Positions 2,092 through 5,296 of a stretch of DNA of 5,751 nt are shown in pieces. The stretch lies in assembly GCA_030671985.1 (NCBI GenBank), contig DAOVHI010000095.1, positions 1 to 5,751 of the forward strand, in the 5' to 3' direction. Numbering within the stretch: position 1 is the first letter of the stretch; the number at the start of each line of letters is the position of its first letter. The notes beneath the pieces are model-generated. The model had not been told where the DNA came from. It saw only the letters and a program-made list of their open reading frames with translations, and ran no database searches. Source of the DNA: JAHJDO01 sp030671985 [NCBI: bacterium] (lineage in GTDB: Bacteria; JAHJDO01). A program made the translations under genes and the position numbers.

Positions 2092-2982
2092 CTAAAGAAG
2101 ACTGCTGTCTACTGCGTTTTTTATAGCTCTTATATGCTCCGGTGTTGTGCCGCAGCATCCACCTATGATATTGGCTCCGGCGTCTATGAGTTCAGGCACT
2201 TTTTTTACCATATCCTCAGGTGTCTCTCTGAAACAAGTTTTCCCATCTATTAATTCAGGAACTCCTGCATTAGCATGAACAAGAATTGGCTTGGAAGAAT
2301 ATTTTCTCATCTCTCTGACAATATCCACCATAGGTCCAATTCCATTACCGCAATTTGTTCCTATAATATCCGCACCTGCTTTTTCTAATCCAAGCACAGC
2401 CTCTTTCACACCAACACCCATCATTGTTTTATATCCCTGCGTTCCATTATCAAATGTCATTGTAGCAATAGCCGGAACATTCGTGTTTTCCTTCACAACC
2501 TTTACAGCAATAGAAGCTTCTTCAAGAGACGTCATGGTTTCTATACATATTGCATCTGCTCCACCCTGTATTTGCGCCAGAACCTGTTCCCGAAACACGT
2601 CATACATCTCATCTTCTGTCACAAGCCCCAGAGGCTGTATAAATTCTCCTGTCTGCCCAACAGAGCCCGCAACAATTCCTCCGCATTGCAGAGCTGCTTT
2701 TTTAGCCAACGTAACACCTGCCTTGTTAAATTCGACAACCTTTTTCTCTAAACCGAATTTTGCAAGTTTAAATCTTGATCCGCCGAATGTGTTTGTTACT
2801 ATAATATCGCTTCCGGCTTTTAAGTAAGCTTCTGCAATTGCCCTGACTTCGTCCGGATTGGTTATGTTCCACTCTTCAGGACATCCGCCTGCTTTCAGCC
2901 CTTTCTTTTGAAGTATGGTACCCATAGCGCCATCAGATACTAAAATCTCGCCTTTTTTAATCCGATCAAGTAATAAACTCAT
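2092..2982 (-). CDS. Homocysteine S-methyltransferase, stand-alone MetH N-terminal-type module
   Basis: This cytoplasmic zinc enzyme of 296 residues moves a methyl group to homocysteine, forming methionine. DGAMGT (17-22) is the family N-terminal signature. The zinc cysteines are C211 in GTNCGNG and C276-C277 in GGCCGTTPEH, spaced as in the homocysteine domain of bacterial MetH. The protein ends just after this barrel, so the pterin, cobalamin and reactivation domains of full MetH are absent. They would have to come from separate proteins, such as the interrupted pterin-binding gene at 1-321 and a corrinoid protein not seen here. The ATG at 2982 has GGAG (2990-2993) 7 bases upstream. It is the first gene of the operon with rlmN and the phosphatase. 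Betaine or S-methylmethionine methyltransferases share the fold, but the pterin-type neighbour favours a split methionine synthase. Confidence 0.88.
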   Translation of the reverse strand: MSLLLDRIKKGEILVSDGAMGTILQKKGLKAGGCPEEWNITNPDEVRAIAEAYLKAGSDIIVTNTFGGSRFKLAKFGLEKKVVEFNKAGVTLAKKAALQCGGIVAGSVGQTGEFIQPLGLVTEDEMYDVFREQVLAQIQGGADAICIETMTSLEEASIAVKVVKENTNVPAIATMTFDNGTQGYKTMMGVGVKEAVLGLEKAGADIIGTNCGNGIGPMVDIVREMRKYSSKPILVHANAGVPELIDGKTCFRETPEDMVKKVPELIDAGANIIGGCCGTTPEHIRAIKNAVDSSLL

Positions 2983-3316
2983 AATTCAACTCCATTTCTT
3001 GCTTTCACTTTTTTCAAATCAGACCTCTTAAAAACTTGTTTGCGCTAATAACCCTAATATCATCTTTCAAACAATCGGAACTCACACAGATTCTACCATA
3101 GTCAAAAATAATACCAAGAATTTTGTAGTTCGGTGGAAATTTTCAGCACAACTCCATTATAGAATATATCTTTTTTACCAAATCTGTTTTTAATGATATT
3201 GTAATGGAAATACAAAACCTAAACAAGAATTACCTTTTTAAATCTATAAAAATTTGATACGCTTTTATTAGTTTTGTAACGAGGAATCGAGAAAACATGG
3301 ATTTCATGTATTAAGT
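2983..3316. other. Intergenic stretch upstream of the homocysteine methyltransferase and left flank of the cassette
   Basis: No ORF with support on either strand. For the minus strand it holds the GGAG ribosome site at 2990-2993, the candidate promoter at 3090-3117, and an isolated TATAAT at 3156-3161 without a -35. For the plus strand, TTGATA (3254-3259) sits 17 bases from a poor TAACGA (3277-3282), a weak candidate promoter for the cassette gene. A short inverted repeat ACATG/CATGT with a 5-base loop lies at 3295-3309, just before the cassette boundary. I see no SAM or cobalamin riboswitch signature, no integrase fragment and no convincing second attC. Confidence 0.6.
3090..3117 (-). promoter_or_regulatory. 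Candidate promoter of the homocysteine methyltransferase-rlmN-phosphatase operon
   Basis: The minus strand has TAGAAT (3090-3095) preceded by TGG, an extended -10, with TTGGTA (3112-3117) at a 16-base spacing. Predicted initiation near 3083 gives a leader of about 100 bases. The TGG-extended -10 arrangement is the same as that of the candidate promoter at 349-377. Supported by consensus match only. Confidence 0.35.
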
Positions 3317-3323
3317 GTTAGCT
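3317..3323 (+). repeat. Integron core site at the cassette 5' boundary (GTTAGCT)
   Basis: The core-site form is G|TTRRRY, with recombination after the first G. GTTAGCT fits except for a C at the sixth position. Its first six bases are the exact reverse complement of GCTAAC in the attC R'' box (4382-4387). This is expected when they form the two halves of one attC in the excised circle. The junction is therefore placed between 3317 and 3318, 17 bases before the cassette ATG. Confidence 0.75.
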
Positions 3324-4452
3324 ATATAAAAAATATGAAGGATGATAGAAAAAATCGAATAATAAAACTTTTAGAAGAAATAAATAGTTTTAGAATGTGT
3401 GGTCCATCTGATGACCCTGATGAAATCACTGCTGTTACTTCGGGTCTACGTTATTTAACAATTCAATTAAAAAAAGCATCAATGGCATTACTTCCTGCTT
3501 CTTTAAATGATCAAATTGCAAATATAGAAGTGGAAATCAATGATATATGTGGTGCTTATGACGCAAAAGCTGAACTTGATGCTTTATCATTTGAGATAAA
3601 ACAAGTTTTAAATGGAGAAATTTTTGAAGAGCCTAAAATAACCAAATCAACAATAAATAATCAAGAGCTTTTAAAGTTGATAGAAAAACTTAAAAATACT
3701 ATGGTGTCAGTGTCGACTGGTGGCCAGCGCATACAAAATGTTAATTTCGAATATCAAAAAACATATGGTGAAGTTGATGTCGAACTTAGAAATCGCAAAC
3801 TTGAAAACCCAAATCCCTATCCCGATCTTTGGGAATGGTATGGTCGTTGGAGCATCGGTGATTTGCCATCCTATCAATCCCGAAGACAATTTCTTTCAGA
3901 AATGTTCAACCCATTACTGGAAGAATTGAGAAATAGAGAAGCTGGGAAACAGCCAACTATTCTTCAAAAGCCAACCGGATGGGCAAGAGTTGATAGAACA
4001 ATTGAGGAAATCCGGAATCGTTTATCATCAGCAACAACAGAAGAGCAATATCAAGCAATTGGCCTCTTATGTCGTGACGCCTTAATTTCGCTTGCACAAT
4101 CTGTATACGATCCCAAAAAGCACCCAAACATGGATGGTATCCAACCCAGTGAAACAGATGCGAAAAGAATGCTTAAAAATTATATTACAAGTACTTTAGC
4201 TAGTAGTTCAAACGAAGCAGCACGAAAACATGCCAAAGCTGCATACGATCTTGCCAATGATCTTCAACATAGAAGAACTGCAAATTTTAGGCAGGCTGCT
4301 CTGTGTACCGAAGCTACCGCATCAATCATCAATGTTATTGCGATTATTTCTGGAAGGCGAGATCCATAATAAAATTTAGCCGCTAACAATTCGCTTCAGG
4401 CAATCGCAACCCGTCGCCAAATGGCGTCGGCTGCTCTGCCTGAGCTCAAACG
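3318..4452 (+). mobile_element. Solitary integron gene cassette (one ORF plus attC)
   Basis: The unit has the standard cassette layout: a core-site half at the left, a short leader, a single ORF (3335-4369) filling almost all of it, then an attC whose R'' box begins 11 bases after the stop. Its span of 1135 bases is normal for a cassette. The ORF runs opposite to every other gene in the window. Both flanks are ordinary chromosomal operons, and no intI gene or further attC is visible within 3.3 kb to the left or 1.3 kb to the right. This is either an insertion by an integron integrase at a secondary site or the last remnant of a decayed array. The empty site would read AAGTG|TTAGTG. Confidence 0.82.
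3335..4369 (+). CDS. Cassette-borne protein of unknown function, Abi/HEPN-like C-terminal look
   Basis: This is a 344-residue soluble protein with no signal peptide or membrane helix; I cannot assign it to a named family. Residues 1-120 are rich in charged, helical sequence (such as ELLKLIEKLKN). Residues 124-200 form a conserved-looking block with VSTGGQRIQNVN (125-136), ENPNPYPDLWEWYGRW (157-172) and DLPSYQSRR (176-184). Residues 213-342 form a helical domain beginning PTGWARVD, with an LLCRDAL helix, a DAKRML segment, then DLANDLQHRRT (305-315) and AALCTEATASI. The last part resembles all-helical domains of abortive-infection and HEPN-type proteins, but the canonical Rx4-6H motif is missing. 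The ATG is 17 bases inside the cassette and has no clear Shine-Dalgarno, which is common for cassette genes. No promoter fits in that leader, so expression must start in the left flank. It is complete, with no frameshift. A defence role is inferred from the cassette setting and is unproven. Confidence 0.85.
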   Translation: MKDDRKNRIIKLLEEINSFRMCGPSDDPDEITAVTSGLRYLTIQLKKASMALLPASLNDQIANIEVEINDICGAYDAKAELDALSFEIKQVLNGEIFEEPKITKSTINNQELLKLIEKLKNTMVSVSTGGQRIQNVNFEYQKTYGEVDVELRNRKLENPNPYPDLWEWYGRWSIGDLPSYQSRRQFLSEMFNPLLEELRNREAGKQPTILQKPTGWARVDRTIEEIRNRLSSATTEEQYQAIGLLCRDALISLAQSVYDPKKHPNMDGIQPSETDAKRMLKNYITSTLASSSNEAARKHAKAAYDLANDLQHRRTANFRQAALCTEATASIINVIAIISGRRDP

Positions 4453-4458
4453 TTAGTG
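4381..4458 (+). repeat. attC recombination site of the integron cassette
   Basis: The 78-base imperfect palindrome has every attC part. R'' CGCTAAC (4381-4387) pairs with R' GTTAGTG (4452-4458), with one G:T. The unpaired spacers are AATTC (4388-4392) and TCAAAC (4446-4451). L'' GCTTCAGGC (4393-4401) pairs with L' GCCTGAGC (4438-4445) in eight pairs plus one extrahelical T, the asymmetry that guides integrase strand choice. The central part (4402-4437) forms an inner stem from CCG.CGCC and GGCG.CGG around an AAAT loop. The outer sequences resemble the attC of the aadA resistance cassettes. Recombination is expected after G4452; the last six bases belong to the flank. The 37 bases from 4459 to the ATPase stop contain nothing I recognise, including no terminator. 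Confidence 0.88.
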
Positions 4459-4495
4459 CGACGAAAGCGTAGAAAGAATAGAATATATCGCCAAT

Positions 4496-5296
4496 TTATT
4501 GTAGGACTTTAGCTTTTTCTTCTTCTGAAACCACCAGTATATATGGCTTGGAAGAAATAGGATTCTTTTCAACCACTACCACTGTCTCGTAAACATCCTC
4601 AATAATCTGATATGTTAATACCTCTTGAGGTGAGCCAATTTTGTAAATAAGTCCATTATTGAGGAGAACTAGTTTGTCGCAATATTCGCTTGCCAGATTA
4701 AGGTCATGTAAAACCACAATCACAGTAAGTCCTTTTTGTCTATTCAGCCTTCTGATAAGATCTAAAACTTTGATTTGATGGGTTATATCCAAATGGGCTG
4801 TGGGTTCGTCTAAAAGAAGCAATTTCGGTTCCTGAGCAAGCGCTCGAGCAATAACTGCAAGCTGTTTTTCTCCACCGCTCAGCTCTCCAAGAAGTCTGTC
4901 CTTAAACCTGATGGTATCCGTTAAAATCATCGCCTCTTCGGCAATTTGCCAGTCATGTTTGCTTTCCAAAAATTGAAACTGCCTGCGATAAGGAATCCTT
5001 CCCAGAAGAACGAACTCTTCTATGGTCATATTAGATCCTATTTCCGAAGACTGAGATACAAAAGCTACTTTTTTGGCAAATTCTCTAAATCCAAATTTGG
5101 ATATATCTTTTCCATCAAAAAGAACCTCCCCGCTTCGCAGCTTAAGTATTTTGGTCATTGCTCTGAGCAAAGTCGTTTTCCCTGAGCCGTTAGGACCGAT
5201 TATCCCACAAAGTCCTTCCTTTTCTATTTTGAGATTAATCCGGTTAAGTACAAATTTTGAATCATACCCGCAGACCAGATCTTTCACTTCAATCAT
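4496..5296 (-). CDS. ABC importer ATPase, iron-siderophore/haem/cobalamin family (FecE/BtuD/HmuV-like)
   Basis: This cytoplasmic ATPase of 266 residues drives a type II (BtuCD-fold) importer. The nucleotide-binding motifs are intact: Walker A GPNGSGKT (34-41), Q-loop Q82, signature LSGGE (139-143), Walker B LLLLDEP (159-165) and H-loop H197. The VLHDLNLASEYCD stretch is typical of the FecE/FhuC/BtuD branch. The extra 40 or so residues after the core are probably a small C-terminal extension. The ATG at 5296 shares one base with the stop of the permease gene (TAATG), so the two are translationally coupled. A G-rich ribosome site lies inside the permease's last codons. The sequence does not settle the substrate. 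Cobalamin is attractive because a corrinoid-dependent methyltransferase system lies nearby, but ferric siderophore or haem fit equally well. Confidence 0.92.
   Translation of the reverse strand: MIEVKDLVCGYDSKFVLNRINLKIEKEGLCGIIGPNGSGKTTLLRAMTKILKLRSGEVLFDGKDISKFGFREFAKKVAFVSQSSEIGSNMTIEEFVLLGRIPYRRQFQFLESKHDWQIAEEAMILTDTIRFKDRLLGELSGGEKQLAVIARALAQEPKLLLLDEPTAHLDITHQIKVLDLIRRLNRQKGLTVIVVLHDLNLASEYCDKLVLLNNGLIYKIGSPQEVLTYQIIEDVYETVVVVEKNPISSKPYILVVSEEEKAKVLQ

Follow-up and report, generated by a model that had tools for sequence, protein, structure and literature searches.

Gene cassettes at dispersed attI-like sites in a genus of the bacterial lineage JAHJDO01: probable integron-type insertion with no integrase alongside

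The stretch of DNA analysed here (the window) is the whole of contig C69, 5751 bp in length, from the 1.25-Mb, 152-contig assembly (G000) of the bacterium JAHJDO01 sp030671985, and it carries a true integron gene cassette. The 100 nt that precede the cassette (3221-3320) are one copy of a leader repeated in the genus, and the last 22 or so of them match attI sites lying next to integron integrase genes (intI). We consider it probable that cassettes in this genus have been inserted by integron-type recombination at dispersed chromosomal attI-like sites with no integrase adjacent, the enzyme having been lost, being encoded on unbinned DNA, or acting in trans. The attC site, the repeated leaders, the complementarity between junctions and R'', the exchange of cassettes at orthologous loci, the likeness of one leader family to attI and the lack of intI in the assemblies are all established at the level of sequence. 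An earlier, sequence-only reading had proposed a solitary integron cassette; it was right about the cassette, but the cassette is one of many, dispersed over the genome, and the repeated leader had been missed.

The window cassette and its attC site

The features of the window on which the argument turns are these (a slash marks the crossover point here and below):

3318-4452, forward strand: integrated gene cassette, 1135 bp, its junction matching the reverse complement of its R'' at six of seven positions; another cassette occupies the orthologous locus in the related genome G002
3335-4369, forward strand: cassette open reading frame (ORF), 344 amino acids, no family assignment
4381-4458, forward strand: attC site, with R'' at 4381-4387, L'' at 4393-4401, L' at 4438-4445 and R' at 4452-4458
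3221-3317, forward strand: family-1 leader, a promoter-like AT-rich segment plus the left half of a putative attI, described by model R1; similar sequence lies beside an Omnitrophota intI (L258)
3297-3317, forward strand: putative attI core ATGGATTTCATGTATTAAGTG, first of the 190 GTT sites in the window by a matrix of 14 attI sites; crossover expected at G3317/T3318

Both cassette boundaries can be read directly in the window sequence, as G3317/TTAGCT on the left and G4452/TTAGTG on the right, and the cassette is complete, with a core-site boundary and a single ORF, as first described. Its attC likewise has the textbook form originally claimed for it: R'' (CGCTAAC) is followed by a 5-nt spacer and an L'' containing one unpaired base, and L' by a 6-nt spacer and R' (GTTAGTG), so that the R and L boxes, unpaired spacers and extrahelical base characteristic of an integron cassette are all present, at the box spacing of class 1 attC sites. 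Two checks proposed with the sequence-only reading, folding of the bottom strand and covariance scoring, bore this out. The folding energy of the bottom strand (4378-4459) is -20 kcal/mol; shuffled sequences gave -12.4 ± 2.2, and none of 200 equalled it. A covariance model (R2) trained on seven outside attC sites only (class 1 integrons and a cyanobacterial plasmid integron; three plasmid integrons) scored the site at 34.2 bits (E 4.8e-5, in 182,080 bases), while a presumed class 1 attC absent from its training (L145:3987-4076) scored 27.1 bits. The window site was also the top R2 match of its own genome (E 3.3e-4). A scan with Rfam did not flag it, and gave two weak, chance-level matches elsewhere.

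The description of the cassette as lone could not be upheld, for at E ≤ 1 R2 finds at least four attC sites in the same assembly, and a further model, R3, built from 24 sequences with the window attC among them, finds at least nine. Across the genus the corresponding figures are at least eight sites in three of five genomes with R2 and at least 32 in all five with R3. Genome-wide counts made with these models, and with R1, are lower bounds: the R2 genome search missed an attC on G004:C14 that a locus scan had found. Early heuristics for attC sites were dropped because of an excess of false matches, chiefly in GC-rich loci, and a stricter geometric rule, which gave 10 matches in 32 loci against 5.1 ± 2.3 (maximum 10) in 40 shuffles, was weak on its own and was superseded by the covariance models.

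The cassette ORF matched no Pfam, NCBIfam or PADLOC family above cut-off, and a search of viral contigs revealed no relatives; a structure prediction from a two-sequence alignment had a mean predicted local distance difference test score of only 48.5 and was not used. A shorter relative, 86% identical, is encoded in the first cassette of a three-cassette cluster (L039) in a metagenome-assembled genome (MAG) of Candidatus Omnitrophota, and that cassette begins with TTAGCTATA, as does the window cassette. A Haliscomenobacter plasmid encodes a further relative (41.6%). The L039 cluster is followed by an ORF pair (7518-8081), presumably AbrB-like and RelE-like; in the same genome (G097), the cluster is closed by an attC-like site of just 37 nt at L205 7355-7391 (C32).

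As originally noted, the cassette lies between two chromosomal operons of opposite strand: the genes to its left (homocysteine methyltransferase, RlmN, a HAD phosphatase and a methyltransferase fragment) and right (ABC ATPase and FecCD permease) are all on the minus strand. The remark that the host is unusual and that no integrase lies near the cassette also proved sound, a search of the phylum having given five genomes (G000-G004) of a single genus.

Repeated leaders, their junctions and cassette exchange

When positions 2900-4560 were compared with the related genomes, the part directly upstream of the window cassette matched at six more places in the genus; the match stops at 3319-3320 in three cases, 17 bases further in one and earlier in two. 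A sequence-only model of the 100-nt leader (R1), made from the window copy and six others, gave at least 34 matches at E ≤ 0.05 in the five genomes (6, 7, 9, 7 and 5 in G000 to G004). These family-1 leaders, which terminate in ...TTAATTG/TT, show homology along some 100 nt between unrelated loci. Some matches consist of the promoter-like part only and some of the core only, so the two parts appear to be separable. Among 31 R1 matches inspected, 29 have an ORF start within 160 nt downstream, and by eye the ORFs are unlike one another except for two pairs, G000:C54/G004:C54 (promoter-only matches before one gene) and G001:C196/G001:C165. Promoter-like motifs are present in the leaders of the relatives. 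In L117 (G002:C44) and L116 (G003:C32) a family-1 leader lies at most about 100 nt beyond the xerD stop codon, with different cassettes, and G001 has none. In L094 (1974-2140, G003:C31) a second attI core stands between two cassettes, joined to a copy of the right flank at lolA, so that the promoter part of the leader seems to have been replaced by the flank's own sequence. The exact family-1 21-mer was also met in two viral contigs with the same surroundings, where it lacks leader or promoter context and was judged a chance occurrence.

A second family of leaders, ending ...TTCAATGATTAATG/TT, emerged upstream of attC sites listed by R3. Allowing up to two mismatches, its pattern occurs 23, 31, 17, 15 and 27 times in G000, G002, G004, G001 and G003 respectively, compared with 2, 9, 6, 1 and 7 for the reversed pattern, and a TTGA motif lies 61-70 nt ahead of the junction at 16 of 23 sites. 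What suggests an attI nature for family 2 is solely the behaviour of its junctions. Of 29 attC matches examined, 18 have a leader of one or other family upstream, two belong to later cassettes in an array (G002:C96, G004:C77b), and one (G000:C143) has a family-2 site upstream with a junction that does not fit. One family-2 leader, in L188 (G003:C32, about 160.8-162.6 kb), is followed by a 547-amino-acid ORF, an apparent metabolic gene as cassette, whose start we take to resemble that of a hybrid-cluster protein.

When a circular cassette enters such a site, the bases past the crossover G are those of its own R', complementary to the R'' at its far end. The window junction, GTTAGCT, agrees with the reverse complement of its R'', GTTAGCG, at six of seven positions, as closure of a circular cassette requires. 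In 23 leader/attC pairs, 81 of 92 variable positions agree with the R'' complement, whereas permuted pairs gave a mean of 38.4 and a maximum of 59, none of 100,000 permutations doing as well; 17 pairs match the complement exactly at all four variable junction bases, and four others are one base off. For this test family-2 sites were chosen by pattern and the 10 family-1 pairs were leaders seen with a readable attC, three of these attC sites being placed by eye (the first on G002:C96, G003:C71 and G003:C31b). An earlier test on 21 pairs included three found through a scan for R'' itself (G000:C120, G003:C34 and G003:C87), and reliance is therefore placed on the 23-pair test. In the 21-pair set the R' now present in each attC agrees with the R'' of the same site at only 33 of 84 positions, and never in full, which is to be expected if the present R' derives from the target.

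Exchange of cassettes was assessed by alignment of both flanks at two loci, which we name lolA and cob (for cobA and cobQ) from presumed gene identities. At lolA, G002 and G003 are identical at 387 of 400 positions up to the G and at 465 of 500 beyond the last cassette, counted from the first T; their cassettes have only chance similarity (score 15.5; unrelated-flank controls 11-16.5). Since the left flank is 97% identical, turnover must have continued once the leader was in place. G004, too, has a leader here (96/110). Its content is different (18.0 and 20.5 by score, in stretches of low identity) and its right junction is altered, the right flank being alignable only from 156 bases inward. 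At cob, the locus of the window, the leader region is common to G000 and G002 (121/188), as are 23 of the first 27 right-hand bases counted from the first T, around unlike cassettes (score 16.5), the G002 junctions falling at positions equivalent to 3317 and 4452. The call of the sequence-only reading for an empty site in relatives was answered as well: the cobA-cobQ interval of G001, G003 and G004 contains no leader and no cassette. Related loci are thus found either empty or with another cassette. By right flank only, loci E and F of G003 and G002 agree at 430/502 and 431/498, from 0-2 bases off the TT, with different ORFs upstream. At locus D the right flanks agree at 451/495, the G003 end being placed by eye and the G002 contig beginning 137 bases upstream, and exchange is not shown. 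The window itself lacks cobA and cobQ, which in the relatives lie between the methyltransferase and ABC genes, and retains short flanks of the locus (2983-3160 and 4475-4500). Three further features belong here:

3156-3170: left copy of a short direct repeat, ATTATAGAATATATC, which marks the empty site in L041, L043 and L044; the occupied G002 site is L042
4453-4474, forward strand: right flank, TTAGTGCGACGAAAGCGTAGAA, which we presume to be the docking site's right half in displaced position
4478-4489: right copy of the direct repeat, ATAGAATATATC, as in the window sequence; a near-identical repeat flanks the G002 locus on both sides

These repeats raise the question of whether leader, cassette and right end move together as one element, MITE-like (resembling a miniature inverted-repeat transposable element) or site-specific, with the cassette structure merely as cargo. 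A short direct repeat stands at both ends of the cob insert in G000 and G002, and two full leaders begin with ATATATGGAATCC and finish in GGATTCCATATAT or a near copy, forming an inverted repeat. At lolA, however, G002 and G003 have kept leader and right flank around cassettes that differ; this, with the junction/R'' rule, indicates that cassettes moved independently of leaders. Movement of the whole unit is therefore quite improbable as a general explanation, although it could account for the spread of leaders, on which the two kinds of repeat offer hints, as distinct from the entry of cassettes.

Likeness to attI and the search for an integrase

True integron integrases, scoring above the TIGR02249 cut-off, were found in 15 of 285 sampled genomes of the phylum of G097, taken to be Omnitrophota, and beside their intI genes lies a site ending ...TATATTAATTG/TT. 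These sites were chosen by likeness to the family-1 core (up to three mismatches), but two properties lend them independent support. Their position is constant, all 14 lying 0.43-0.56 kb away from the intI stretch that was matched. Moreover, eight of the nine Omnitrophota intI loci with an attC match have the site, and in all eight the junction agrees with the R'' of the first cassette at seven of seven positions, which argues that these are real attI sites. A matrix was made from 14 of 17 intI loci, omitting L248, L252 and L261. Applied to 8280 GTT sites in 49 loci of the genus, it placed family-1 leader junctions in the 18 highest ranks, and in the window it gave G3317/TT a score of 16.8, the next site scoring 10.0. 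On a stretch of the cyanobacterial Kovacikia plasmid its top site, 0.2 kb from intI, scored 22.6. The family-1 core thus resembles the 14 intI-adjacent attI sites, whose choice was itself guided by that core. At L258, the first cassette begins TTAGCTATATAAAA, as in the window cassette.

This likeness bears on the suggestion that an integrase simply dropped cassettes at non-classical genomic sites, with no real attI involved. PMC12901181 cites Loot et al. 2024, which is also among the references of PMC11023631, for insertion of single cassettes into genomes at such attG sites. According to PMC12901181, these attG sites diverge from the classical att type. The family-1 sites are not unlike attI: they have about 100 nt of leader homology at unrelated loci, and a core in common with intI-adjacent attI. 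For family 1 the attG explanation is already disfavoured, and we regard it as very improbable indeed.

The search for intI and for further attC sites that had been called for found no intI, and did find additional attC sites, contrary to a solitary cassette. No protein of G000-G004 scored above the TIGR02249 cut-off. Among the 31 Phage_integrase matches listed for the genus, the 10 proteins scanned are XerC, XerD and others, with a best TIGR02249 score of 193 bits against the cut-off of 265, and the IntI-specific insertion, present in four IntI references, occurs in none of 14 aligned recombinases of the genus. Within the completeness of these MAGs, then, no integrase gene with the additional IntI domain accompanies the sites. 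The protein with the top score (L127, G002:C121) was rejected as an IntI since it lacks the insertion and adjoins a transposase-like ORF; in L242 (5798-7920) of the same contig a tyrosine recombinase without the insertion stands directly upstream of what we take to be an IS91-type transposase. G097, the genome of L039, has six attC matches and no IntI above the cut-off.

Another account of such absence is ordinary decay, in which several loci once held complete integrons of intI, attI and array, intI was lost everywhere, and what is left, attI with the first cassettes, now resembles clusters of attC sites lacking integron-integrases (CALINs). Certain leaders do look decayed (for example G002:C50 and G001:C193). 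No intI remnant was detected, however, around leaders and attC sites, in 371 kb made up of 85 loci that partly overlap, where tblastn found only XerD and one IS-linked recombinase; xerD ends so close upstream of a leader that there is no space for intI; and the different lolA cassettes behind a 97% identical left flank point to later turnover. Decay is on these grounds rather unlikely.

Insertion at dispersed attI-like sites remains the reading we prefer, and the following observations weigh against it. The attI matrix is partly circular, because its sites were chosen by way of the family-1 core; of the loci omitted from it, L248 has an attC and no such site, and L252 and L261 have only three-mismatch sites near a contig end. 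R1 at E ≤ 5 finds matches beside only five of the 17 intI loci, a strong one at L258 only (24.2 bits), and none of 31 intI loci examined showed a family-2 site (the best score there is 11.9; the weakest site of the genus has 26.2). Eight of the 29 attC matches have neither leader nor array neighbour, although five of these eight had less than 900 nt upstream, and the junction test clearly fails for two of the 23 pairs (L185 and G002:C119). In the window leader the promoter is degenerate: a consensus scan calls none there and yields fewer promoter-like sites than in shuffles. Finally, since the genomes are fragmented MAGs of 62-96% completeness, intI may be located on an unbinned plasmid.

Relation to known systems and significance

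The events proposed are as follows. Bottom-strand recombination of attC with attI would place a cassette into a chromosomal attI with no integrase beside it. Sites resembling attI, many with a promoter-like segment upstream, are spread over the chromosome of the genus and hold one or a few cassettes that point away from the leader; entry would be at G/TT, and cassettes are swapped over time while leader and right flank are kept. The leader promoter may drive expression of the cassette. An integrase of the type found in Omnitrophota and on the cyanobacterial plasmid may have acted in trans, from an unbinned plasmid or a transient element, or have been lost, and leaders may have spread as small mobile or duplicated segments. 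More tentatively, the genus might possess a distributed integron, in which many promoter-bearing attI slots are reloaded with single cassettes by a non-canonical recombinase (the host Xer or another tyrosine recombinase) or by an integrase arriving in trans; this we consider possible but somewhat doubtful. If it were true, each cassette would have a promoter of its own, and expression would run in parallel and not along a queue in a single array.

With a conventional integron these loci share the attC geometry, the G/TT crossover, an attI core of Omnitrophota and Kovacikia type and a promoter-like segment ahead; they differ in that each genome has many attI-like sites, mostly with one or a few cassettes, and intI is neither adjacent nor in the assemblies. 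MITE-bounded integron units, in which a small inverted-repeat element is tied to integron parts, are similar in that association, but in this genus the repeat itself ends in the attI core and the unit shows no integrase or transposase. Like CALINs and single-attC variants, the loci have attC sites without intI; CALINs are defined by attC sites alone, whereas here the loci start with an attI-like leader that recurs in the genome and stays fixed while cassettes change. Insertion at attG, as cited, likewise puts single cassettes at chromosomal sites outside an integron, but the target in this genus is a repeated attI-like leader and not a divergent genomic site. Both CALINs and the use of their cassettes in trans by integrases are established ideas (PMC9024848, PMC9668308). 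A literature search of partial coverage did not recognise dispersed, genome-wide attI-plus-promoter sites lacking intI, which lends weak support to their novelty.

In this genus attI-like sites appear to have been multiplied, dispersed and detached from intI. By default IntegronFinder 2 reports clusters from two attC sites upwards and does not detect attI outside class 1 (PMC9024848); contig C69 carries a single attC and falls short of that definition of a CALIN, and such loci would escape notice. If the sites are functional, many cassettes would be expressed simultaneously, and the integrase need not be encoded by the cell. The attI core common to Omnitrophota and a cyanobacterial plasmid integron, together with the cassette family shared by the window and L039, points to a type of integrase that can be tested.
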